64,000 nucleotides of DNA from Roseovarius albus (lineage in GTDB: Bacteria; Pseudomonadota; Alphaproteobacteria; Rhodobacterales; Rhodobacteraceae), in contig NZ_FWFX01000013.1 of the NCBI RefSeq assembly GCF_900172335.1, positions 1-64,000 of the forward strand. Direction: 5' to 3'. Each line of letters opens with the position of its first letter. Positions within the stretch are counted from its first letter, which is position 1. Below the pieces are notes generated by a model, which saw only the letters and a program-made list of their open reading frames with translations, had not been told where the DNA came from and did no database searches. Positions 2,908 to 64,000 of this stretch are shown one piece after another. A program made the translations under genes and the position numbers.

Positions 2908-3897
2908 ATGAAAACGAAACTTCTGACAACCGTCGCAACGGTCGCGTCAATGGGTTTAGCATCTATGGTCAATGCGACCGAATTGCGCCTATCACACCAG
3001 TGGTCAAACAAAGACATCCGCCATCAAGTAGCACAGATGGTTGCCGATGAGGTTGCCGCTGCAGACGTTGATCTAAACATCAAAATCTTTGGTTCAAAGT
3101 CGCTTTTTAAACCACGAGAACAATATCGTCCGCTGAGCCGCGGGCAGTTGGATATGACAGTTCTGCCGCTCAGCTATGCGGGTGGCCAACAACCCGCCTT
3201 CAATCTGACGTTAATGCCGGGTCTTGTGAAGAACCACGACCATGCCGCACGTCTGAGCAATTCTCCGTATATGCAAGCTCTCGAAGAAAAAATGGCCGAA
3301 GATGATGTCATGGTGTTGGTCCACGGGTATCTGGCCGGGGGGTTTGTTGGCAAAGACAATTGCATCACTAAACCCGAAGACGTCGCGGGGCTGCAAACAC
3401 GCGCAGCTGGCAAAGCGTTTGAACAGATGTTGGCCGGTGCAGACGCGTCTATCACATCTATGGCCTCTTCAGAAATCTATAATGCGATGCAAACTGGCAT
3501 TCTAAATGCGGCGAACACGTCGTCGTCTTCATTTGTATCGTACCGTATCTACGAACAGGCGGCGTGCTACACGCCAGCCACCGAAGATGTGGCGTTGTGG
3601 TTTATGTATCAGCCACTCCTGATGAACAAATCTACCTTTGATGATCTTACTGCAGAACAGCAGGAAGCTCTGTTAGGGGCTGCTGCGAATGCTGAAGCTT
3701 TCTATCTTGAAGAAGCCAAAAAGCAAGATGCTGCTTCGGTCGAAGTCTTTGAAAAAGCCGGTGTGGAAATCGCTGAGATGTCGCCGGAGGATTTCGCAGC
3801 GTGGCGCGCACTCGCTCAGGAGACGTCCTATAAGCAATTTGTCACGGATGTTCCGGATGGTCAGGCGTTGTTGGATATGGCGCTCTCTGTCGAATAG
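2908..3897 (+). CDS. matP: TRAP transporter solute-binding protein (malonate)
   Basis: This is a DctP-family periplasmic binding protein of 329 residues. It has a signal peptide (MKTKLLTTVATVASMGLA, cleavage near VNA) and the DctP body, with the conserved arginine segment LQTRAAGKAFEQML that contacts the carboxylate of the ligand. The start at 2908 follows a strong GGAGG ribosome site (the frame is open back to 2881). It is the first gene of matPQM-decarboxylase-synthetase, so malonate is the likely ligand. A hairpin downstream may keep the binding protein more abundant than the permease. Confidence 0.85.
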   Translation: MKTKLLTTVATVASMGLASMVNATELRLSHQWSNKDIRHQVAQMVADEVAAADVDLNIKIFGSKSLFKPREQYRPLSRGQLDMTVLPLSYAGGQQPAFNLTLMPGLVKNHDHAARLSNSPYMQALEEKMAEDDVMVLVHGYLAGGFVGKDNCITKPEDVAGLQTRAAGKAFEQMLAGADASITSMASSEIYNAMQTGILNAANTSSSSFVSYRIYEQAACYTPATEDVALWFMYQPLLMNKSTFDDLTAEQQEALLGAAANAEAFYLEEAKKQDAASVEVFEKAGVEIAEMSPEDFAAWRALAQETSYKQFVTDVPDGQALLDMALSVE

Positions 3898-53921: not shown

Positions 53922-55511
53922 TTAGCGAGGCCGATATGAACCTTCCGGCACCAACGCCTCCCAATCCAGCTCAAACTTCTGCAAATACTTCCGTAACCTA
54001 TCTGCATCGTTCTGGGTTTTGCGCTTGCTGCGCGAGATTGCGAACAAGCTACGCCCTGCGGCGCTGAGGTTTGCTGAAGTTCGGCAAGTCCGGATCACTG
54101 TGGCAAGTTGGACCATATCAAACGGATCAACATCCGCAGCACGAGCGCCCAACACCTCTTCGATCAATTGAAAATCACTGTCCGCGCTGGCAGCATTCCA
54201 GTCGGCATGCAGGTTTTGAACCTCCTCATCCACCATGGCGCGGGTGATCCGGCCACGCGGGGCCAGTGTACACAGGCGGCGGATGGAGCCGCTGAAATCA
54301 CGGAAATTACCGGGCCAGAGCGTTGCGGGATCTTTTGCAAAGCGCAGGTATTTATCGCGTGCCTCTATATTGAAGCCCACCTGCGTTCCAATTTCCCGCT
54401 CCGCGCGGGCAAGTTCAAACACCAGATTGGCTTCGATATCCTCACGACGTTCGCGAAGCGCAGGCAGGCGAAAGCTCCACATGTTCAGGCGCGCCAATAG
54501 ATCGGGGCGGAATTTCCCCGCAGCCGTCAGCGCCCGCAGGTCGCGATTGGCCCCGGCGATCACCTGAAACCGGCTGCTCATTTCGTGATCAGAGCCCAAA
54601 GGGTAGAATCGCCCCGTCTCAATCGCGTGAAGCAGAACAGATTGCTCATTCCAGCCCAACTCGTCAACTTCGTCCAGAAACAACACGCCGCCGTCAGCCT
54701 CCCTCAGCAAGCCGCTACGTTCTGATCCTGCCTGCCCGGTGTAACTACGCCGTTGCCCAAAGAGCGACGCCAACGCATCCGGGCCATTCAATGTGGCGCA
54801 ATTGACATGTACCAACCGGCCTTTGACTCGGCGGCGATCCAGTTTGAGGTTATAAATCCGCTCGGCCAGTTCAGTCTTGCCGGTGCCTGTTTCTCCTAAC
54901 AATAGGATTGGCGCATCCGAATTGCTGGCCACCAGTTCAACCCGATCTATCAGCGCATTATAGGTGGCGTTCTTGGTTTCTATACCTCCTTTGAGCTGGT
55001 CACTGTATTCACGTGACATCTGGTCGAAACGCTGCTGTAGCGCATTGTAACGGCTCAGATCCAGATCAATGATGTCGAACTTGGGCGTGTCATCCTCGGC
55101 CCCCGGTGGACCGGTCTGAATCAGGCGTGCCGGGATGTGGCGGCTTTCGGTCAGCAAGAACCAACAGATCTGCGCCACATGGGTACCGGTGGTCAGGTGC
55201 ACATGATAGCGCTCGCGATCTTCGTCAAAGCCATAGCTGCGCGCGAAATCGAACAGCTTGCCGTAGACCTCCTGAAAATCCCACGGATCGTTGAGATCTA
55301 AAGTATGCAACAGCACTTCGGTATCAGGGGAGACCGTTTCGATCTCTTGCTTCACCTGATGGGCAAGGCGGTTGAACTTCTGATCATGCAGGATTTCCAA
55401 CCGGTCCAGTTCGAAATGATCATGAGAGGCGAGACTGACCGTGGGTTTCCAGCGTCGTTTTTTGCCCATGTCCAGTTGAGTACCAAGGAATCCAATCGCC
55501 ACGTTTCTCAT
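53922..55511 (-). CDS. rtcR: RtcR-type sigma-54 activator with CARF-like sensor
   Basis: The 529-residue protein starts MRNVAIGFLGTQLDMGKK (ATG 55511, the usual RtcR N-terminus; the frame is open to 55565). Residues about 1-170 are the CARF-like ligand domain, about 185-420 an AAA+ domain with GETGTGKTELAE and GGVLFLDEVDELG, and the tail carries the DNA-binding helices. In the place of the usual GAFTGA loop it reads RRSYTGQ, keeping TG but not the flanking residues. It is divergent from the Ro60-Y RNA-RtcB operon, which it is expected to induce on sensing RNA ends. Confidence 0.9.
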   Translation of the reverse strand: MRNVAIGFLGTQLDMGKKRRWKPTVSLASHDHFELDRLEILHDQKFNRLAHQVKQEIETVSPDTEVLLHTLDLNDPWDFQEVYGKLFDFARSYGFDEDRERYHVHLTTGTHVAQICWFLLTESRHIPARLIQTGPPGAEDDTPKFDIIDLDLSRYNALQQRFDQMSREYSDQLKGGIETKNATYNALIDRVELVASNSDAPILLLGETGTGKTELAERIYNLKLDRRRVKGRLVHVNCATLNGPDALASLFGQRRSYTGQAGSERSGLLREADGGVLFLDEVDELGWNEQSVLLHAIETGRFYPLGSDHEMSSRFQVIAGANRDLRALTAAGKFRPDLLARLNMWSFRLPALRERREDIEANLVFELARAEREIGTQVGFNIEARDKYLRFAKDPATLWPGNFRDFSGSIRRLCTLAPRGRITRAMVDEEVQNLHADWNAASADSDFQLIEEVLGARAADVDPFDMVQLATVIRTCRTSANLSAAGRSLFAISRSKRKTQNDADRLRKYLQKFELDWEALVPEGSYRPR

Positions 55512-55535
55512 ATTGATATCTATTTTTATAATTTC

Positions 55536-55551
55536 CGATACATTTGTATCG
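55536..55551. promoter_or_regulatory. Palindrome in the rtcR-ro60 spacer
   Basis: CGATACA-TT-TGTATCG is a perfect 7-bp inverted repeat with a two-base centre. It lies 25 bases upstream of rtcR and about 136 bases upstream of the Ro60 gene, at the distance of an upstream activator site. I found no clear -24/-12 (TGGCAC-N5-TTGC) element between it and the Ro60 ATG on the plus strand. Confidence 0.5.
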
Positions 55552-55686
55552 TACATATGAATCACAACACATGCAATTTCGTATATTTTGATTATATATC
55601 AGATACTTAAGTTAATTTTCATTTCTCCTCTGCAGCCATCAAGAACCATGTCAAAACATCCTCACAAATGAATAAGGAACGAAACA

Positions 55687-57243
55687 ATGGCGAACAAATC
55701 CGTGTTTGCATCGATCAAAGGCCGGTTGCTGCCAAAGGCATCTGCTAAGAACGCCCACGGCGCACCGGCTTACGCATATTCCGATGCCCATGCCCTGGCT
55801 CAGGTCGCTGTCACTGGCACCTTTGGCGGCATGTTCTATCAATCGCCACAGGACGAACTGGAATACGTTCTGGATGTGGCGGAATCCGTTGATCCGCGTT
55901 TTCTGGCGCAGGCGGCGATATATGCCCGCCAGTCGGGATACATGAAGGATATGCCAGCGGTCTTGTTGGCGGTTCTGGCACGGCGCGATCCGGTCCTGTT
56001 CCGGGCGGCCTTTGGTCGTGTGGTTACGCACGGCAAGATGCTGCGCACCTTTGTGCAGGTTGTGCGCTCCGGCCAGACCGGCCGTAAATCGCTGGGCTCT
56101 GCACCCAAGGCAATGGTGCAGAATTGGCTGAACACTGCCTCGGACCGGGCGCTGATCAATGCCAATATCGGTAACGACCCGTCGCTGGCGGATGTGATCA
56201 AGATGGTGCACCCGAAACCGGCCTCGGCCGAGCGGGAGGCGCTGTTTGCCTGGATCGTCGGGCGGCCGTGCAATCTGGCACGGTTGCCACAGGCTTTGCA
56301 GGACTGGATCGCATTCAAGGAAACCGGCAAAGGTCCGGTGCCTGACGTACCGTTCCAGATGCTGACGCAGCTGGAATTGTCTTCGGCACATTGGGCGCGG
56401 ATCGCGCGTCAGGGCTCATGGCAGATGGTGCGCCAGAACCTGAACACGTTCCAACGTCACGGCGTTTTCGGCGTGGCCAAGAACGTGGATCATGTGGCCG
56501 CCTTGCTGCGCGACCCCGAGGCGATCGCCAAGGCGCGTGCGTTTCCGTACCAGTTGATGGTGGCGGCGCAAAACGTGAATTGCGATATGCCAGCCGAGAT
56601 CGTGGACGCCTTGCATGATGCGATGGAGATCGCAGTGCAGAACGTGCCGCAGGTTGCGGGTCAGGTTGTGGTCTGCCCGGACGTATCGGGTTCGATGACT
56701 TGGTCGGTGACCGGTTACCGCCCGGGGGCAACCTCGGCCGTACGTCACGTGGATGTGGCTGCGCTGGTAGCAGCGTCCTTCCAACGCGTGAATCGCGGGT
56801 GTCAGGTGTTGCCGTTCGACTTTGACGTACGTGATGTCCGTCTGCAGCCGCGCGACACAATCCTGACCAATGCCGAGCGTCTGGCCGCATTGGCGGGTGG
56901 TGGGACAAACTGTTCTGCGCCACTGGCCTGGCTGAACGAGCGCGGTCGTGCGCCGGATCTAGTGGTTTTCGTGTCTGATAACCAATCGTGGGTCGATGCC
57001 CGGGGTGGAGGTCAGGGCACGGCGATGTTGAAAGAATGGGAGGTGATCAAGCGTCACAACCCAAAGGCCAAACTGGTCTGTATCGACATCGCACCGTACG
57101 GGACGACACAGGCCCAGACACGTGAAGACGTGTTGAACGTCGGCGGCTTCTCGGACGCGGTCTTTGACCAGATCGCACGGTTCACCGCAGGTCAAATCGG
57201 CCCGGATCACTGGGTTGGTGAGATCGAAAAAATCGATATCTGA
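55687..57243 (+). CDS. rsr: Ro60/Rsr TROVE-domain RNA-binding protein
   Basis: The 518-residue protein is a bacterial Ro60 orthologue. The TROVE HEAT-repeat ring (about 20-330) has DELEYVLDVAESVDPRFLAQ, AIYARQSGYMKDMPAVLLAV and QNVNCDMPAEIVDAL, and the C-terminal von Willebrand A domain (about 345-510) has the MIDAS motif D-V-S-G-S (VVVCPDVSGSMTW). Ro60 binds Y RNAs on its outer surface and misfolded RNA ends in its pore. Directly downstream lies an array of Y-RNA-like elements, then RtcB. It is the first gene of this unit. Confidence 0.95.
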   Translation: MANKSVFASIKGRLLPKASAKNAHGAPAYAYSDAHALAQVAVTGTFGGMFYQSPQDELEYVLDVAESVDPRFLAQAAIYARQSGYMKDMPAVLLAVLARRDPVLFRAAFGRVVTHGKMLRTFVQVVRSGQTGRKSLGSAPKAMVQNWLNTASDRALINANIGNDPSLADVIKMVHPKPASAEREALFAWIVGRPCNLARLPQALQDWIAFKETGKGPVPDVPFQMLTQLELSSAHWARIARQGSWQMVRQNLNTFQRHGVFGVAKNVDHVAALLRDPEAIAKARAFPYQLMVAAQNVNCDMPAEIVDALHDAMEIAVQNVPQVAGQVVVCPDVSGSMTWSVTGYRPGATSAVRHVDVAALVAASFQRVNRGCQVLPFDFDVRDVRLQPRDTILTNAERLAALAGGGTNCSAPLAWLNERGRAPDLVVFVSDNQSWVDARGGGQGTAMLKEWEVIKRHNPKAKLVCIDIAPYGTTQAQTREDVLNVGGFSDAVFDQIARFTAGQIGPDHWVGEIEKIDI

Positions 57244-57288: not shown

Positions 57289-57413
57289 TTCGGCGAATGC
57301 CGGTGAAACTACAGGGAGAGCGCTGATCAAAAGATCAGAGGTCGCGGGTTCAATCCCCGCCGCGCACAAGCGACGTAGCTCAGAATATTGTTTCATCAAT
57401 CGTTGTCGTCGAA
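57289..57413 (+). ncRNA. Y-RNA-like element 1 (with permuted tRNA module)
   Basis: TTCGGCGA (57289-57296) pairs with TCGTCGAA (57406-57413), closing a 125-base RNA. Inside, the conserved ATGCCGGTGAAACTACA is followed by a T-arm (GCGGG-TTCAATC-CCCGC), a short acceptor-like hairpin and GTAGCTCAG of a D-arm; the D-arm is incomplete. GGTGAAA pairs with TTTCATC as the second stem of the Ro-binding helix. The order T-arm before D-arm is that of a circularly permuted tRNA, as in bacterial YrlA-type Y RNAs. Confidence 0.75.
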
Positions 57414-57425
57414 CCCGAAATAAAC

Positions 57426-57514
57426 ATCAGGCAGAATGCCGGTGGGACTACATCGCTATCCCCGATACGCGCCCGAAGTGGGCCGTAGGTCTCACCCTCT
57501 CTTGTCTGCTTGAT
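57426..57514 (+). ncRNA. Y-RNA-like element 2 (short form)
   Basis: ATCAGGCAG (57426-57434) pairs with CTGCTTGAT (57506-57514), including one G-U pair. The shared core ATGCCGGTGGGACTACA and CTCACCCTCTCTTGT flank a small hairpin (GCCC-GAAGT-GGGC). No T-arm or D-arm is present, so the RNA is only the Ro-binding stem with a minimal loop, 89 bases long. Confidence 0.65.
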
Positions 57515-57532
57515 CCGAATAAAAAGGAATAA

Positions 57533-57660
57533 TCTCGGCGAATGCTGGTGGAACTACAGGAATCCAATCCCCGAGTCGCGGGTTCGAATCCCGCCATCGC
57601 TTGCGATGTAGCTCAGTCTGGTAGAGCAGGTCATATTTCACCCTCCCCTTGTCGCTGGGA
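57533..57660 (+). ncRNA. Y-RNA-like element 3 (complete permuted tRNA module)
   Basis: TCTCGGCGA (57533-57541) pairs with TCGCTGGGA (57652-57660) with two wobble pairs. The core AATGCTGGTGGAACTACA is followed by a perfect T-arm (GCGGG-TTCGAAT-CCCGC), CATCGC-TT-GCGATG as a closed acceptor mini-stem, and a D-arm GCTC-AGTCTGGTA-GAGC. TTTCACC closes the second stem. All tRNA elbow parts are present but in permuted order, with ends where the anticodon arm would be. Confidence 0.8.
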
Positions 57661-57679
57661 CTTTGATGCAAAGGATAGT

Positions 57680-57754
57680 GCGCCCGTAGCTCAGTGGCAG
57701 AGCACCCGCCTTTTAAGCGGTAGGCCGTGGGTTCGACCCCCACCGGGCACTCCA
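57680..57754 (+). tRNA. tRNA-Lys(UUU)-like gene with mismatches
   Basis: A 75-base cloverleaf with encoded CCA: acceptor GCGCCCG/CGGGCAC, D-arm GCTC-AGTGGCA-GAGC, anticodon loop CTTTTAA (UUU at 57712-57714) and T-arm GTGGG-TTCGACC-CCCAC. Two pairs are lost: C2-A71 in the acceptor and C27-U43 at the top of the anticodon stem. It stands between Y-RNA elements 3 and 4 in an RNA-repair operon. It may be a functional minor tRNA-Lys, a decaying copy or a decoy substrate. Confidence 0.7.
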
Positions 57755-57772
57755 GAATAAGTTGGTAAAGCA

Positions 57773-58117
57773 ATGAAAACCGTAACGATGAAACGACAAA
57801 ATAAATTTCTCAGCTTCGTACTGCGCCACAACCCGGATGAAATCGGGATCACACTGGATGCACAGGGCTGGACCGATGTGGAGCGCCTGCTGGTGCAGGC
57901 CACAAAGCATGGCCTGCCGATCACGCGGGAAGAGCTGGACGCCATTGTCGCGCAAAACGACAAGATGCGGTTCACGTTCTCGGCGGATGGTACCCGCATC
58001 CGCGCTGACGGACTATCTGGCGGATCTTTAAACCTAATTATCAGGGGGAGTGCCCGTGGGACTACATCGCTTGAAACGGTCGCCGAAAGGCGTCTCACGA
58101 ACGCCTTGTCCCCCTGA
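57773..58117 (+). pseudogene. kptA: Truncated KptA/Tpt1 (RNA 2'-phosphotransferase), N-terminal half
   Basis: The first 80 residues match the KptA winged-helix part: KFLSFVLRHNPDEIGITLDA with the catalytic Arg-His pair, GWTDVERLL, and AQNDKMRFTFSADGTRIRA with the second arginine. Homologues continue with QGHS and an ADP-ribosyltransferase-like domain of about 90 residues. Here the frame runs into Y-RNA element 4 and stops at 58117, whose TGA is part of that RNA stem. Without the NAD-binding half it cannot be active as a full transferase. It starts 18 bases after the tRNA-Lys-like gene. Confidence 0.75.
58041..58117 (+). ncRNA. Y-RNA-like element 4 (short form, overlaps kptA end)
   Basis: TCAGGGGGA (58041-58049) pairs perfectly with TCCCCCTGA (58109-58117). 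The second stem CGTGGGA pairs with TCTCACG. The shared motifs GTGCCCGTGGGACTACA and GCCTTGTCCCC are present, and the loop carries one small hairpin (CGCC-GAAA-GGCG). There is no tRNA module. The element occupies the place where the second half of kptA should be. Confidence 0.7.
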
Positions 58118-58133
58118 CCCACAATAAAGGACA

Positions 58134-58293
58134 CCCCCGGCGAATGCCGAAGGAACTACATGCACCAACCAAAGTCCGGATCAGACCGATGGGGTTCAAT
58201 TCCCCTCCTCGCATGCGCCCATACGGCAAACGCATCTGCCCATTCAGATGCGGGGCGGGTCCCGGGTTGTTTCTTCTCCCTTGTTGCCGGGGG
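58134..58293 (+). ncRNA. Y-RNA-like element 5 (T-arm only, extra hairpin)
   Basis: CCCCCGGC (58134-58141) pairs with GCCGGGGG (58286-58293), then AATGCCGAAGGAACTACA follows on the 5' side and TTTCTTCTCCCTTGT on the 3' side, with GAAGGA facing TTCTTC. The loop holds a T-arm-like GGGG-TTCAATT-CCCC (58191-58205) and a separate 8-bp hairpin CGCATCTG/CAGATGCG. A canonical D-arm is not seen. At 160 bases it is the longest of the seven. Confidence 0.65.
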
Positions 58294-58301
58294 CCAAATT
58301 T

Positions 58302-58377
58302 TCGGCTGTAGCTCAGTTGGTAGAGCGCCTGATTGTTAATCAGGATGTCACAGGTTCGAACCCTGTCAGCCGAGCCA
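58302..58377 (+). tRNA. tRNA-Asn(GUU)
   Basis: A canonical 76-base tRNA with encoded CCA: acceptor TCGGCTG/CAGCCGA, D-arm GCTC/GAGC, anticodon arm CCTGA-TTGTTAA-TCAGG (GUU) and T-arm ACAGG-TTCGAAC-CCTGT. All stems pair perfectly. It begins 8 bases after the closing stem of Y-RNA element 5, so it is probably processed from the same transcript. Confidence 0.95.
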
Positions 58378-58395
58378 GAAATGAAAGGATCACAT

Positions 58396-58532
58396 CGCGG
58401 GGAATGCCCGCAGGACTACAGGTAGACGCACCCGGATACGGGTGGCATGGGACACCATGCCGTGCTGGTTCAAGTCCAGCCCGGGGCAACCCGGTGGCGG
58501 AATAAACGTCCTGCGAACCCCTTGTCCCCCGG
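58396..58532 (+). ncRNA. Y-RNA-like element 6 (T-arm and two hairpins)
   Basis: GGGGA (58399-58403) pairs with TCCCC (58525-58529), and the second stem CGCAGGAC (58409-58416) pairs perfectly with GTCCTGCG (58508-58515). The core ATGCCCGCAGGACTACA matches the other elements. The loop has GGCATGG-GACA-CCATGCC (an anticodon-arm-like hairpin) and GCTGG-TTCAAGT-CCAGC (T-arm-like, 58464-58480). A canonical D-arm is missing. Confidence 0.65.
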
Positions 58533-58541
58533 TCAACATTT

Positions 58542-58669
58542 CACGGCGAATGCCGATGGAACTACAGGAATCAACAGGTCGCGGGTTCGAATCCCGCCAT
58601 CGCACTCAGCGATGTAGCTCAGTTGGATAGAGCCGTTGGCAAATGTTTCATCACCCCCTTGTCGCCGTG
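58542..58669 (+). ncRNA. Y-RNA-like element 7 (complete permuted tRNA module)
   Basis: CACGGCGA (58542-58549) pairs perfectly with TCGCCGTG (58662-58669). After ATGCCGATGGAACTACA come a T-arm (GCGGG-TTCGAAT-CCCGC, 58581-58597), an acceptor mini-stem CATCGC-ACTCA-GCGATG (58598-58614), and a D-arm GCTC-AGTTGGATA-GAGC; then TTTCATC closes the second stem. It is nearly the same design as element 3 but with different stem bases, so the pairing is supported by compensating changes. RtcB starts 25 bases later. Confidence 0.8.
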
Positions 58670-58694
58670 CCCGTTATTAGAGTGAGATAAAAAG

Positions 58695-60110
58695 ATGAGT
58701 AACGAAAACACATATGACCCCGTGACCGGAGAGCATCTGAAAGACTGGGGCCACCGGCCCGGCAAGCAATTCCCGAACCTGCTGGCACGGGCCAATGAAA
58801 TGCGGGCCGAGGGTTTTGGTCTGGTGCGGATCCGACAAGAGCTGGACAGCGAGATTGTCCCTGCCCCGCCTACAATGGATCTGCGGACGCCGGGAGAGGT
58901 CGCGTTTCACGAAAACATTGATGTCGCACACCCAGATGAGGAAGACAACGTCATCAAAGTGCGCGAAACGATGACTGCATTGATGCGGACTCCAACCATT
59001 GAATCCGGCGCGATCATGCCAGACGCCTGCCCTGCGGGTCCGGTTGGTACGATTCCGGTCGGTGGTGTGGCGGCGGCACGCAATGCGATCCATCCGGGGA
59101 TGCACTCGGCTGATATCTGCTGCTCTGTCATGATCACCGATCTGGGTCATGCTGACCCAAAGACGGTACTGGATGCCGCGCAGTCGGTGACGCATTTCGG
59201 CCCGGGTGGTCGGCCGCAGGGCAAACGTTTCACCACATCACTGAAACTGTTGGATGCCTTTCGGGAAAACCCGTTTCTGGACAACCCCAAGTCCCTGCGC
59301 ATGGCGCAAGAACATATGGGCACGCAAGGCGATGGCAACCATTTCCTATTTGTCGGCCGCTCGCGCAAGACCGGGAGAACAGCGATTGTGACTCATCACG
59401 GATCGCGGGGCCCGGGGGCAGTTCTGTATAAAAACGGCATGACCGTGGCCGAACGGTTCCGCAAGGAATTGTCGCCGCAAACCGCCAAGCAGAACGCGTG
59501 GATTCCGGCGGATTCGCCGGAAGGCCGCGACTATTGGGCGGCGCTACAGCTGATCCGGAAATGGACCAAGGCCAACCACAATTCGATTCATCAGGCGACG
59601 ATTGAAGCTGCCAAAGTGTCCGATGTGGGAGATCGGTACTGGAACGAGCATAACTTCGTTTTCAAACGGGGTGATCTGTATTTCCACGGCAAGGGGGCGA
59701 CCCCCGCCTGGGGGGATTACGCTGCTGATGCAACGGGGCTGACATTAATCCCGCTGAACATGTCCGAACCGGTTCTGATTGTGCGTGGCAAAGATGCCGC
59801 CCAAGGTCTGGGCTTCAGTCCGCACGGTGCTGGTCGGAACTATTCACGCTCCGAACATAAGCGCCGGATGGGCTCGGTCACGCCAGAACAAATGCTGAAG
59901 ATTGAGACTGAAGGGCTGGACATCCGGTTCCATGCTGGTGGCGTTGATGCCTCAGAGCTGCCTTCGAGCTACAAGAGCGCAGAGAGCGTTGTGGCGCAAA
60001 TCAAGTCTTACGACCTGGCTGAGATCGAAGACTATATCGATCCATACGGCTGCATCATGGCCGGGGATGTACCGCCATTCTGGAAGGCAAAAAAGAAAGG
60101 AAGGCGCTGA
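58695..60110 (+). CDS. rtcB: RtcB-type RNA ligase
   Basis: The 471-residue protein has the RtcB manganese and GMP sites: GMHSADICCSVM (near 134), GTQGDGNHFLFVG (near 207), THHGSRGPG (near 234), HNSIHQATIEAAK-like region (near 297) and the guanylated histidine in FSPHGAGRNYSR (near 374). It joins 2',3'-cyclic phosphate or 3'-phosphate ends to 5'-OH ends. It has about 80 extra N-terminal residues before the core compared with the shortest RtcB proteins. RtcA is absent. It ends the Ro60-Y RNA unit before a hairpin. Confidence 0.93.
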   Translation: MSNENTYDPVTGEHLKDWGHRPGKQFPNLLARANEMRAEGFGLVRIRQELDSEIVPAPPTMDLRTPGEVAFHENIDVAHPDEEDNVIKVRETMTALMRTPTIESGAIMPDACPAGPVGTIPVGGVAAARNAIHPGMHSADICCSVMITDLGHADPKTVLDAAQSVTHFGPGGRPQGKRFTTSLKLLDAFRENPFLDNPKSLRMAQEHMGTQGDGNHFLFVGRSRKTGRTAIVTHHGSRGPGAVLYKNGMTVAERFRKELSPQTAKQNAWIPADSPEGRDYWAALQLIRKWTKANHNSIHQATIEAAKVSDVGDRYWNEHNFVFKRGDLYFHGKGATPAWGDYAADATGLTLIPLNMSEPVLIVRGKDAAQGLGFSPHGAGRNYSRSEHKRRMGSVTPEQMLKIETEGLDIRFHAGGVDASELPSSYKSAESVVAQIKSYDLAEIEDYIDPYGCIMAGDVPPFWKAKKKGRR

Positions 60111-60659: not shown

Positions 60660-63600
60660 TTAGAATTGCAGACCGAAGCCGAAACGGAACTGGAGGCTGT
60701 CGCTCAACTCGCCAAACATACCGTCAACACCAAGCTCGATAAAGCCGCTCTCGTCTGGTTCATATAAGCCAAGATCAAGCGATACCAGTCCGAGTGTATC
60801 ATCGATGTAGCTGACGTTCTCGAACCCGCCATCCAGTGCACTGGCTCCGGAGAACCCGGCGGCGACTGATATCGTGTCAGAGGATGACAACATTGCCCCG
60901 GCGCGCATGCTGGCGCGGAAATCATAGGTCGCGTTCATGCGTCTCTGGGTACCCACCTCAACCGATGGTGTGAATGAGAAAATCATCTGCTCATGGTCTT
61001 GCAACACAATGCCCGACGACAGCGCCTGCCCGTTCGCGCGGGTTTTGAGCATAGTAGTATCAAATGCCAGCGTCGGTTTGACATAGCTTTGGCTACCTTC
61101 GATCTGGTGATCATAAGCAAAGCTCAGCCGGATATTCTGATGCCGCGTTTTGTGGCTAATGTTGCTGACGGCCGTGGTATCGACAACCGCACCGCCCGGC
61201 AACGCGCCAACGAAACCACCACCACGCTCGGTATCATATCGCGTGCGGCCACCTGACCAGCTGCCGGCGATTTCCCAAGGGCCGGAATATTTTGTGACAG
61301 AAACACCAAAGTTCAAACGCTCTCCAGAGGAATTGAACAACGGCCCGTTGGTCAGGCTGCTCTGATCATATCCCAACGCGAACCCGGCATAGAGGTCTTC
61401 GCCAATCGGATAGCTCAAGCCGCCCGACAGGCTGCTTCCATTGATGCTCAGATCATTATCAAGCGCGGTTTCTGACCGATCAAACCGCGAACCTGACAGC
61501 GCCAACCAGAAACAGCGTCGCGGATCCCAACCTTCTGATTGTGGTGTCAGATCCTGACAGCCATGCATCGCGTCGGCAAAGCGCAGGGCACCGTAATAGT
61601 TATCAATCACATCGGCAGCGTAATCGCCGATGGTGAAACTGTCGATTGCAGCGATCACGTCCGCCTCGGAAGTCATGTTGCCAATCAGGGCAAACAGCTG
61701 TCCCTGCTCAGCCGAGCCCTGCCCGGTCAAAACCCGATTAATGTAATCGCCCACCGCCGCCTGATTTCGGTTCATGTTCTGGGTTGAAAAGTCCGGATTG
61801 ACGACCAGCGTCACGGCGCCCCCGCTTGCAGCTGCAGCACTCAGCGCGCTGGCGGAGCTAAATGCGGCTAGAGCAGGAGCACTGGCTGCGGGTGTCTGAG
61901 CACCTTCAAGCGCGATGGAATAATCCAACACAACCGTGTCCTGAATTTCCGTTCCGTTGTCTGCAACGGTTCCCTCAGCATTGATTAACACCAGGGGCAG
62001 CGCCCGTTCCAATGTGTTCAAAACCGGGGTCATGGTGCCGCCCATGGTCGCATTGCCCGTGGCATTGATCAGATCACTGTCGCCACCCGCCGCGCCGCTA
62101 GTCAGGAAGTAGACATCAAAGGTCGATTGTGCCGTTTCGCCAAAGGCAATACTGCCGTTTAACGCGGTCGTTTGGCTGACATTGCCAGCAAAGGTGAAGT
62201 CGCTAGCCTTTACATCTCCCGAAAGCGGGGCTGTCATGCCTGCTGTCGCACCAAGGATCAGATTGCCATCGACTTGCATCATACCTGACGCGCCCAGATC
62301 AATGATATCTTGCGTATAGAAAGTACCGCCCTGTTCGACATCCAGCTCGTTGATCCCACCGCCAAGGTTAAGATTGCCAAACGCCTGACCGGCAAGGGCA
62401 ATGTTTTCATTCCCGGTGCTGCCCAGAACCAGTTGGGTGTTCGCGGCCATCAACAGGCTATCGCTTGAGAAGGTCAACGCATTATCTGTACCGCCATCCA
62501 CGATGACCGAAGCTACTTCGGACATCTCGCCGGTGCCGCCCATGACCACACCGTCAAAGCCAAGGGTGATCGCATCTGCCCCATCACGGCCCTCGGATTG
62601 TGCCAGAACCGCGATACCGCCATTCCCCACCGAGAGCATGTTGCCTTCCAGATCCAGATCAATGGGGCCGCCCGAACCTGCGCCGCCTGCGCTACCGCGG
62701 AACATCGCGTCCACCGCGCCACCGCCACCGCCTAGCGACTGCGCCAAAACACCAATGGCATTGTCGCCATTGGTCACAACATTCCCGGTCTGAGTGAAAT
62801 CGATCGCACCACCGTCGCCACCATTCGCATCTGACAGCGTCAGGGTCAGTTTTTCTGCTGCCATGTCGGTGGTCACCAGACCGCCCCCACCACCGATACT
62901 TTGCAAGACAAAGCCGTGCGATCCAGCCCCATTTGTGGTCATGCCGCCCGCGTTGGACATGATGATTGCACCGCCGTCGCCCGTTGAATTGTCCTGCGCG
63001 CCGAGCGTAACGCTGGCGGCACCTAGTCCCGCGATCACCGCCTCACCGCCGCCTGCGCCGATGCTCTGAACTACTTGTCCAAAGGCATTGTCGCCGGTTG
63101 TGGAAACATCACCGTCAAGTGTCAGAGTCACGTCACCTCCGTTATTGGTGAAGCTCGGGTCAGCGCCCAAAATGACGCTGGCGCTTTGTGTTTCATCTGC
63201 TGCGCCTTCGCTGGCATTTTGCAAGACCAGCTTCCCGCCGCCGCCGCCAATGGATTGTGCAGAACCGGCCGAGGAGAAAGCTCCAGCCGTAGTGACGTCG
63301 CCGGTACGTTCACCGGTGACATTGCCTCCACCTGCATTGTCCGTGTCAATCGCCCCAAGGCGTGCAGTCAAATCAATGCCTTCGCCCTCGTCCACGCTGA
63401 TAGTGGTGGTCGCCATGCCGCCGCCGCCGCCAACACTTTGCAGCATCATGCCAGTGGATTGGCCCTGAGCGGTTACGATATTGCCGCTGTGGCTTTGGTC
63501 AACATCATTGCCTGCCATGCCAGACACATCGGTACCGCCCAAGGAAACGTCGCTGGAAATGACAGTGCCTGTTCCCGTTGCCGCGCTGGTCACGGCTGAA

Positions 63601-64000
63601 GCCGTAGTAGAAAGACTTGCTACAACTGGGGTCGTTGAAACCGGCGCTTTGAAGTCAACGAAAGTATCAACATTCCCGCCGCCGCCGTTGACCGACTGAG
63701 CAAAGACCGCTTCGCTACCTGCGCCATTCACAAAAATGTCGCCCGTGGTGTTAACCGTCACGGTGCCCGAGGTTCCGGTAGAGCCCTCGCGCGCACCCAT
63801 TACCTGCGAGATCACAAAATCCGCCGCAGAAACCAAAGGAGACGAGATCGAGTATCCGGCATTGCCGCCGCCACCGCCAACCGATTGGGCGTAGATGCCA
63901 TAGGCGTTGTCACCATTGACCACGATGGTGCCGCTGTGAGTGACATCAACGTCACCGCCGTTTGCCCCATCCCCTCCCGCACCACCGATGGCGATCTTGG
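60660..64000 (-). CDS. Large autotransporter (5' end outside the window)
   Basis: At least 1112 codons are visible and the frame is open to the right edge. The N-terminal part seen here consists of glycine-rich passenger repeats of the type GDNAxGIxAQSxGGGGG, recurring about every 55-65 residues. A GLGASVTLGAQ-like linker region follows, then a C-terminal 12-strand beta-barrel (about the last 270 residues) ending in the phenylalanine of RFGFGLQF, the outer-membrane insertion signal. It is a type V secreted surface protein. Codon usage is strongly GC-rich in the repeats. Confidence 0.88.
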   Translation of the reverse strand, partial: KIAIGGAGGDGANGGDVDVTHSGTIVVNGDNAYGIYAQSVGGGGGNAGYSISSPLVSAADFVISQVMGAREGSTGTSGTVTVNTTGDIFVNGAGSEAVFAQSVNGGGGNVDTFVDFKAPVSTTPVVASLSTTASAVTSAATGTGTVISSDVSLGGTDVSGMAGNDVDQSHSGNIVTAQGQSTGMMLQSVGGGGGMATTTISVDEGEGIDLTARLGAIDTDNAGGGNVTGERTGDVTTAGAFSSAGSAQSIGGGGGKLVLQNASEGAADETQSASVILGADPSFTNNGGDVTLTLDGDVSTTGDNAFGQVVQSIGAGGGEAVIAGLGAASVTLGAQDNSTGDGGAIIMSNAGGMTTNGAGSHGFVLQSIGGGGGLVTTDMAAEKLTLTLSDANGGDGGAIDFTQTGNVVTNGDNAIGVLAQSLGGGGGAVDAMFRGSAGGAGSGGPIDLDLEGNMLSVGNGGIAVLAQSEGRDGADAITLGFDGVVMGGTGEMSEVASVIVDGGTDNALTFSSDSLLMAANTQLVLGSTGNENIALAGQAFGNLNLGGGINELDVEQGGTFYTQDIIDLGASGMMQVDGNLILGATAGMTAPLSGDVKASDFTFAGNVSQTTALNGSIAFGETAQSTFDVYFLTSGAAGGDSDLINATGNATMGGTMTPVLNTLERALPLVLINAEGTVADNGTEIQDTVVLDYSIALEGAQTPAASAPALAAFSSASALSAAAASGGAVTLVVNPDFSTQNMNRNQAAVGDYINRVLTGQGSAEQGQLFALIGNMTSEADVIAAIDSFTIGDYAADVIDNYYGALRFADAMHGCQDLTPQSEGWDPRRCFWLALSGSRFDRSETALDNDLSINGSSLSGGLSYPIGEDLYAGFALGYDQSSLTNGPLFNSSGERLNFGVSVTKYSGPWEIAGSWSGGRTRYDTERGGGFVGALPGGAVVDTTAVSNISHKTRHQNIRLSFAYDHQIEGSQSYVKPTLAFDTTMLKTRANGQALSSGIVLQDHEQMIFSFTPSVEVGTQRRMNATYDFRASMRAGAMLSSSDTISVAAGFSGASALDGGFENVSYIDDTLGLVSLDLGLYEPDESGFIELGVDGMFGELSDSLQFRFGFGLQF

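Follow-up and report, generated by a model that had tools for sequence, protein, structure and literature searches.

The closest described relatives of the elements treated here are the YrlA Y RNAs (Rfam RF02553). In the accessible part of the published account, YrlA is described with the D, T and acceptor arms of a transfer RNA (tRNA) and as a substrate of DusA and TruB (PMC8394870), and the Y RNA of structure 6CU1 superposes on tRNA with a circular permutation (PMC11472068, accessible in part). Circular permutation is also known from the tRNA genes of algae and archaea, in which the 3′ half precedes the 5′ half and the acceptor ends are joined by a short loop, and from two-piece transfer-messenger RNA (tmRNA), as far as the available text of PMC3978253 describes them. 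In the Salmonella operon rsr-yrlBA-rtcBA, RtcR responds to cut tRNAs, and YrlA has been suggested to be a competitive inhibitor of a nuclease (PMC7790460, available portion). In this study, we analysed 64,000 nucleotides of the alphaproteobacterium Roseovarius albus (contig NZ_FWFX01000013.1, positions 1 to 64,000, hereafter the window), in which an array of seven Y RNAs, E1 to E7, lies between rsr, the gene for the bacterial Ro60 protein, and the RNA ligase gene rtcB. Sequence and covariation show that four of the seven (E1, E3, E6 and E7) carry a circularly permuted tRNA, in which a short loop closes the acceptor end. The point at which the Ro-binding stem joins the tRNA differs: in E3 it lies in the anticodon stem, between nucleotides 28 and 29, in E7 in the anticodon loop, and in E1 and E6 in the D-loop, just 5′ of G18-G19.

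The array shares with YrlA the Ro-binding stem, the T-arm, the closed acceptor, the D-arm and the position next to rsr, and E3 and E7 exceed the Rfam gathering score. However, the YrlA domain as described in the accessible literature comprises D, T and acceptor arms, whereas many of the elements examined here have an anticodon arm, some have CCA, and E1 and E6 are opened in the D-loop. No title or abstract in the literature searched reported Y RNAs that are opened in the D-loop or bear an anticodon; the primary YrlA papers lay outside that search. The rotated order and the joined acceptor ends are shared with the permuted genes of algae and archaea, but the elements of the window are bacterial, carry an Rsr-binding stem on their open ends and have drifting anticodons. 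The permuted two-piece tmRNA offers an analogy for the elements with CCA, although ARAGORN called no tmRNA in the window. As in Salmonella, rtcR, rsr, Y RNAs and rtcB stand together. The window differs in having seven Y RNAs, two tRNA genes and a truncated kptA, and no rtcA-like entry was seen between rtcR and rtcB in the list of open reading frames (ORFs), the remainder of the genome not having been searched for rtcA.

Permuted tRNAs of the YrlA type

Y RNAs were searched for by a start motif (GARTGC, 6-8 nucleotides, ACTAC), which occurs seven times on the plus strand of the 64 kilobases (kb) and not at all on the minus strand, each time between rsr and rtcB. All seven can close a stem beginning after TTG, with 8 consecutive pairs in six of them and 5 in E6, and this shared stem is expected to bind Rsr, as is reported for YrlA. 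Of 24 rsr loci taken from the genus and family, 23 have the motif; 272 kb of mononucleotide-shuffled sequence contained it once. Related loci came from a scan with an Rsr alignment of a genome collection holding one genome per species (84,980 species). It gave 498 relatives, of which the best 80 were kept; together with the window and four further non-duplicate loci of the family they make up 85 loci, close relatives among them. Pattern matching sorted 309 Y elements from these loci into class A (YrlA-like, 107), class B (short, 82), class C (about 150 nucleotides, 57), D1 (12) and D2 (10), and left 41 unclassified. The class patterns are crude: at least one unclassified element (L098 at 8383) sits outside the array, and at least four of the 107 class A elements are really of the D kinds (L144 6146 and L157 5809 are D1 by the model given below; L102 6174 and L072 4068 start like D2). 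Class A elements L109 6372 and L134 6341 appear over-extended, and the denominator was kept at 107.

E3 (57534..57659, plus strand, as all elements of the array) and E7 (58542..58669) are YrlA elements. In a cmscan of the window they matched RF02553 with 80.0 bits (E 6.8e-17) and 76.9 bits (E 5.3e-16), respectively, against a gathering score of 69 bits, and both have a T-arm, a closed acceptor and a D-arm in permuted order on the Y stem. Each has a T-arm of 5 base pairs (bp) with the loop TTCGAAT, then CATCGC..GCGATG, and then a D-arm GCTC/GAGC; in E3 the three parts are at 57578-57594, 57595-57608 and 57611-57627. A sequence-only reading made earlier had taken this series, with a 6-bp mini acceptor stem, for a tRNA elbow rebuilt by circular permutation on a Ro-binding stem, as in YrlA. 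The Rfam scores and the accessible YrlA descriptions agree with it, and its core, permuted tRNA mimicry by YrlA, was already known, being in print. The letters and their order are as that reading gave them, but the E3 acceptor is predicted to fold as 5 bp with a CUUG loop (six pairs would leave a loop of 2 nucleotides). The elbow is indeed present, but often more of the tRNA is kept, namely the anticodon arm and, at other loci, CCA.

The same reading regarded E3 and E7 as independent modules whose likeness pointed to selection. A tree built from the class A elements of 14 of the 85 loci, read without regard to branch supports, places the two in separate groups, each common to other loci; they are therefore related copies rather than independent inventions, and a recent duplication of one into the other is not supported by this tree. 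Selection on the module is indicated by covariation across loci, not by the two copies in one array. The sequence-only reading had also held that absence of the module from related loci would count against it. In fact, class A elements were found in 74 of the 85 loci, and the order T-arm, closed acceptor, D-arm, written as a grammar, fits 91 of the 107 class A elements but only 2 of 2,140 dinucleotide shuffles.

What had escaped that reading is a split anticodon arm in E3. In many class A elements, ACTAC is separated from the variable loop by a 3-nucleotide stem, a loop, a second 3-nucleotide stem and CC, and the D-arm is followed by an A or G and then GG. By its sequence, this split structure is an anticodon arm, with the cut lying between nucleotides 28 and 29. 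The upper arm of E3, GGA-ATCCAA-TCC (57559-57570), is a hairpin in the predicted fold, and below it CC (57571-57572) pairs with GG (57629-57630), so that the arm reads GG/GGA-ATCCAA-TCC/CC with a six-nucleotide loop. In a fixed frame, all five pairs were found in 51 of 85 usable class A elements, E3 among them, whereas 500 reshufflings gave 8.3 on average and 18 at most; the usable set leaves out 22 of the 107 that lack the D-arm pattern or a long enough insert. The 51 elements form 22 clusters at 85% identity and show 13 upper-stem types. Their anticodon loops have seven nucleotides in 39 cases (T33 in 33 of these, R37 in 36, both in 30), six in 11, E3 included, and four in one. The Rfam YrlA alignment has an unmodelled insertion at the position of E3's anticodon arm.

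When these elements were re-ordered (positions 1-28, then 29-76, bases unchanged), ARAGORN called a tRNA in all 51, including E3, compared with none of the 51 as they stand and none of 1,020 mononucleotide shuffles. Since the 51 had been chosen beforehand for pairing in the upper stem, this rate is conditional on that pairing. CCA was included in 25 of the calls, and 11, that of E3 among them, had no clear isotype. E7 is cut higher up the arm than E3, within the anticodon loop: its GTTGG pairs with TCAAC in 5 pairs, one of them G.U, and elements of its group, with 4-5 contiguous anticodon-stem pairs and the cut in the loop, make up 11 of the 85 usable elements. The conservation of anticodons expected of a decoding tRNA was not found: among 13 class A elements directly upstream of tRNA-Lys the anticodons differ, while the loop shape is mostly kept. 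Decoding is therefore unlikely, and a kept loop around a changing anticodon fits a mimic or a bait better than a decoder. By eye, L184 and L185, from the same phylum but outside the class, also have YrlA-type elements with a complete-looking anticodon arm.

Permuted tRNAs opened in the D-loop

E1 lies at 57289..57413, not within 57533-58669, where the sequence-only reading had listed it, beside E3 and E7, as a permuted module with a T-arm and a partial D-arm. Its D-arm is not partial but split, with the other half, GAGC, at the 5′ end of the module. This is a different permutation, predicted to be the cloverleaf of a class I tRNA with its opening in the D-loop; E6, which that reading did not name, is another such element. 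After the Y motif, E1 runs through GG-GA-GAGC (the D-arm 3′ half GAGC at 57318-57321), a hairpin where the anticodon arm would be (57323-57338, loop AAAA), AGGTC, which is a standard variable loop, the T-arm (57344-57360), a closed acceptor (57361-57375), TA for U8 and A9, and the D-arm 5′ half GCTC (57378-57381). Its predicted fold recovers the permuted cloverleaf unaided (z -2.58; 4 of 200 shuffles are as stable). The Rfam YrlA model gives E1 31.4 bits, below the gathering score, and does not list E2, E4, E5 or E6 even at E values up to 1.

E6 (58396..58532) carries a permuted Leu-like class II tRNA opened in the D-loop. It has the 3′ part of the D-arm at 58421-58429, an anticodon-arm stub at 58429-58444, a variable arm at 58445-58460, a T-arm at 58464-58480, a closed acceptor at 58481-58494 and the 5′ part of the D-arm, TGGCGGAAT, at 58495-58503; variable arm, T-arm and acceptor stand in tRNA order. 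The predicted fold has a z score of -3.05, with none of 200 shuffles as stable. TGGCGGAAT and GGTAGACGC adjoin in three of the five tRNA-Leu genes of the same genome, and in E6 the Y stem separates them. In both E1 and E6 the cut falls just before G18-G19, and the elbow nucleotides are therefore kept. Neither element shows the arm order of YrlA, being cut in the D-loop, and the grammar for anticodon-opened elements fits none of the 12 D1 and one of the 10 D2 elements. We file E1 and E6 as Y RNAs of another permutation and not as YrlA. A further Leu-like D-loop-opened element was seen by eye in L185, outside the class of the window.

The helices were examined in 15 D-loop-opened elements, namely the 12 D1 elements and three from Labrys added by hand. 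The D-stem has 4 of 4 pairs in all 15, including GAAC/GTTC, GAGC/GCTT and GAGT/GCTC, and the T-stem is fully paired (5 of 5) in ten elements, whereas two have 4 pairs and the three from Labrys have 2. Many D-loop-opened elements have loops of 3-4 nucleotides at the position of the anticodon loop. For D2, the helix script mistook the variable arm of L115 for the T-arm, and in L140 it recognised neither an anticodon arm nor a variable arm. In an unfitted alignment of ten rows (A3), 98.1% of the cells are paired, 36 cells show changes on both sides compared with 14.1 +/- 2.8 after shuffling, and 14 pairs changed on both sides compared with 8.6. A covariance model built from these ten elements accepted 20 elements across the 85 loci, the lowest at 66.4 bits and the next element scoring 64.0; the threshold was set by inspection. 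In 17 genomes chosen for rsr or YrlA matches, this model gave seven matches above 86 bits. One is E1 of the window, another, in G400, is an element of L072 that the model already contained, and the remaining five come from four genomes in two other families of the class. An alignment of 24 D-loop-opened rows, which included four of these five and was fitted to the model, again has 98.1% of its cells paired, and 27 of its 32 pairs changed on both sides, in 143 cells compared with 41.2 +/- 5.4 after shuffling and at most 25 when partners were slid. A view of E1 as a decayed YrlA was rejected because the split D-arm, the anticodon stub and the acceptor covary in 24 elements, some of them from other genera such as Paracoccus, Salipiger, Labrys and Asaia.

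Gene neighbourhood and embedded tRNA genes

The source genome comprises 4.29 megabases in 39 contigs, with the window on contig 29. The noncoding array (57289-58671) begins downstream of the end of rsr, within a region of 53.9-60.1 kb that reaches from rtcR to rtcB. rtcR, the regulator of the RNA repair operon, is on the minus strand (53922..55565; PF06956, the RtcR domain, E 4.1e-74; PF00158, the sigma-54 activator domain, E 5.9e-37) and diverges from the unit that contains rtcB. rsr (55687..57243; PF25045, E 1.6e-15; PF05731, E 2.4e-7), with its TROVE and Ro60 vWA domains, and rtcB (58695..60110; PF01139, E 7.5e-36) are both on the plus strand. By its predicted gene content, this is an RNA-repair locus of the form rtcR, rsr, Y RNA array, rtcB. 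An ORF at 57773..58117 (plus strand) is the N-terminal part of a truncated kptA/tpt1, its residues 10-79 matching positions 7-78 of the 177 in the PF01885 profile, and it reads into E4. Elsewhere in the unit, kptA matches were noted at other loci, e.g., L109 (6515-6748), L127 and L133.

The three remaining Y RNAs are E2 (57428..57512), a short class B element without a tRNA module, E4 (58042..58116), also of class B, both recognised by the Y motif and the closing stem, and E5 (58136..58291), a conserved class C element of about 150 nucleotides with a T-arm-like hairpin. In class C, E5 and its 56 relatives may have a crossing helix, TGCA/TGCA against CCGGG/CCCGG, as seen by eye.

Two tRNA genes are embedded on the plus strand: tRNA-Lys (TTT; 57680..57754), which has a C2.A71 mismatch and U73, and tRNA-Asn (GTT; 58302..58377). 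Each is one of two genes of its kind in the genome, and the other copy is quite different from the operon copy. Across the 85 loci, the interval from rsr to rtcB holds 69 tRNA genes in 46 loci, all on the same strand, and none in 39 loci; rtcB was found downstream in 75 loci, and in the other ten the interval was ended at 3,000 nucleotides or at the end of the locus. The isotypes are Asn (25), Gln (16), Lys (14) and Pro (13), with one unclear, and the C2.A71 mismatch, read from the sequences, is common to 13 of the 14 operon tRNA-Lys. A phage origin of the tRNA-Lys was considered and rejected: matches were obtained to 575 phage records, 11 of which lie at 90-95%; the 15 listed are 77-84% identical and of several isotypes, and we take them as general tRNA similarity. 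Among 684 matching plasmid records none covers 80% of the array; of the 15 listed, 14 match over a tRNA-sized stretch and one over 119 nucleotides of E7.

rsr is an accessory gene; with the genome of the window counted each time, it was found in 2 of 100 closely related genomes, 25 of 394 genomes of the family (one a weak match) and 9 of 385 of the class. Two metagenome bins, L093 (Erythrobacter) and L163 (Desulfuromonas), have rsr 91% and 60% identical to that of the window, together with Y arrays, through either gene transfer or mis-binning. Beyond rtcB, an ORF of 1,087 amino acids on the minus strand (60660-63923) has glycine-rich repeats in its N-terminal half and resembles an autotransporter passenger.

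Proposed origin and possible roles of the permuted modules

In 39 of the 107 class A elements, CCA stands exactly 8 nucleotides after the T-stem, at tRNA positions 74-76, compared with at most 7 elements at any other offset from 0 to 24. In these elements the loop that closes the acceptor is therefore N73-CCA plus a spacer. The simplest origin would be from head-to-tail tRNA genes, the 3′ half and CCA of one being joined to the 5′ half of the next, and a tandem-copy origin has been proposed for permuted tRNA and tmRNA genes (PMC3978253, in its accessible part). Ten hand-picked loci that match the YrlA model below threshold (L188-L190, L192, L193, L197, L199, L200, L203 and L206) each contain at least two tRNA genes next to each other, whereas four loci scoring higher with it (66.0-92.5 bits) have no tandem tRNA genes; such tandem pairs are a possible source of false YrlA calls.

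We favour, with a probability of about 60%, the reading that these Y RNAs contain permuted tRNAs of tandem-gene origin which work as tRNA mimics tethered to Rsr. An Rsr-binding stem would have been built onto the junction of head-to-tail tRNA genes; Rsr would hold the Y stem, and with it the module as a tRNA mimic. The tRNA face may dock proteins that read tRNAs, such as PNPase or another nuclease, tRNA modification enzymes, RNase P, or cutters of the anticodon loop, and different entry points of the stem would present different faces. Should RtcR switch on the operon in response to cut tRNAs, as it does in Salmonella, the mimics would appear when tRNAs are attacked, and could either guide Rsr or a partner nuclease towards tRNA-like substrates or titrate the attacker. 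We infer a function as an Rsr-tethered mimic, perhaps a nuclease bait; an adaptor that places Rsr and its partner on tRNA-like targets seems the likeliest role, its main rival being a role as bait for anticodon nucleases.

Several observations weigh against this reading. The E1 acceptor is short and bulged, and in alignment A3 further pair types are not above shuffles (26 compared with 26.8). After re-ordering, ARAGORN called 8 of 21 D-loop-opened elements, one more having been skipped, and neither E1 nor E6 was among those called. The grammar for D-loop-opened elements fits 12 of 12 D1 and 9 of 10 D2, but also 50 of the 107 class A elements; as it does not separate the kinds, the case for D-loop opening rests on the covariance model and the covariation. 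Complete split anticodon arms are absent from 56 of the 107 class A elements (22 unusable, 34 failed). The comparison with YrlA proposed in the sequence-only reading came out well, both E3 and E7 passing RF02553, but the structure prediction proposed with it did so less clearly: the fold energy of E3 (z -0.39) is equalled by 69 of 200 shuffles, and the minimum-energy fold of E7 (z -1.92) lacks the D-arm. Control by RtcR is presumed from gene order, since no sigma-54 site was recognised before rsr on the plus strand of the window at up to 2 mismatches; a shorter pattern, at up to 1 mismatch, occurs in 9 of the 85 loci compared with 3 in shuffled sequence. The predicted structure of the modules is well supported, and chance or an inverted-repeat artefact was rejected on the YrlA scores, the covariation, the grammar, the split-arm counts and the ARAGORN calls.

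In the strict bait reading, those class A Y RNAs that bear an anticodon arm would be decoys for anticodon nucleases, their loops keeping T33 and R37 without a fixed anticodon. A cut in such a loop would spare real tRNAs and yield the 2′,3′-cyclic phosphate ends that RtcR senses and RtcB seals, and the spare tRNA genes would replace losses. The varied anticodons in mostly kept loops in the 13 elements upstream of tRNA-Lys are consistent with this, as are the restriction of 68 of the 69 operon tRNAs to four isotypes and the competitive-inhibitor idea from Salmonella (PMC7790460, available portion). However, fragments of Salmonella YrlA were not detected according to the same available portion, and its authors conclude that YrlA is no nuclease substrate; this objection is softened by the description of YrlA with D, T and acceptor arms only (PMC8394870, accessible part). 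Six-nucleotide loops in E3 and in 11 of the 51 overall do not favour decoys either, nor do the short caps, often tetraloops, that replace anticodon loops in the D-loop-opened elements, and we regard the decoy reading as rather unlikely.

The CCA of class A suggests another possibility, a two-piece RNA in which the N73-CCA elements would lose their acceptor loop to RNase P and 3′ processing and be left with a real tRNA acceptor end, while the Y stem holds the pieces together, as in the known permuted two-piece tmRNA (PMC3978253, accessible text). At least 7 contiguous acceptor pairs are present in 34 of the 39 elements with CCA, compared with 15 of the 64 measured without it, 20 different acceptor strands being represented in this comparison; of the 25 re-ordered members with CCA, 24 have 7 of 7 acceptor pairs and 24 a purine at 73. 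The elements of the window itself and 68 of the 107 class A elements lack CCA at this offset, and where present it could be a relic of origin; we consider a two-piece RNA improbable. Little can be said, too, for processing punctuation, in which the embedded tRNAs would mark RNase P cuts that free the 3′ ends of Y RNAs from a polycistron. An operon tRNA does start 2-15 nucleotides after a Y RNA in 53 of the 63 cases with an upstream Y RNA neighbour (two of the ten others are negative gaps from mis-extended Y ends), but 108 of 154 neighbouring Y RNA pairs are at most 36 nucleotides apart with no tRNA between them, 39 of the 85 loci hold no tRNA between rsr and rtcB, and the mimic modules would be left unexplained. 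It is very improbable that the elements are bacterial permuted tRNA genes, with the Y stem excised at 28/29, the anticodon stem sealed by the RtcB of the operon and the acceptor loop opened by RNase P and 3′ trimming, releasing spare or specialised tRNAs or two-piece CCA-ended tRNA-Y hybrids under RNA damage; if true, such RtcB-aided maturation into tRNA would be the most striking outcome.

The modules go beyond the published arms of YrlA, as far as the accessible descriptions give them, in that they often comprise an entire tRNA with its anticodon arm, sometimes with CCA, and show three stem positions, and they suggest a concrete origin from tandem tRNA genes. The three positions offer natural paired designs with which to ask what face of the tRNA is important for Rsr and its partners. 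As the array brings together RNA repair, tRNA genes and tRNA mimics, the choice between tether, nuclease bait and tRNA precursor becomes testable for bacterial Y RNAs. That Y RNAs often hold a whole tRNA in rotated order, with the stem at one of three places, suggests that tRNAs have been recruited repeatedly, as adaptors or baits, in the control of RNA damage.

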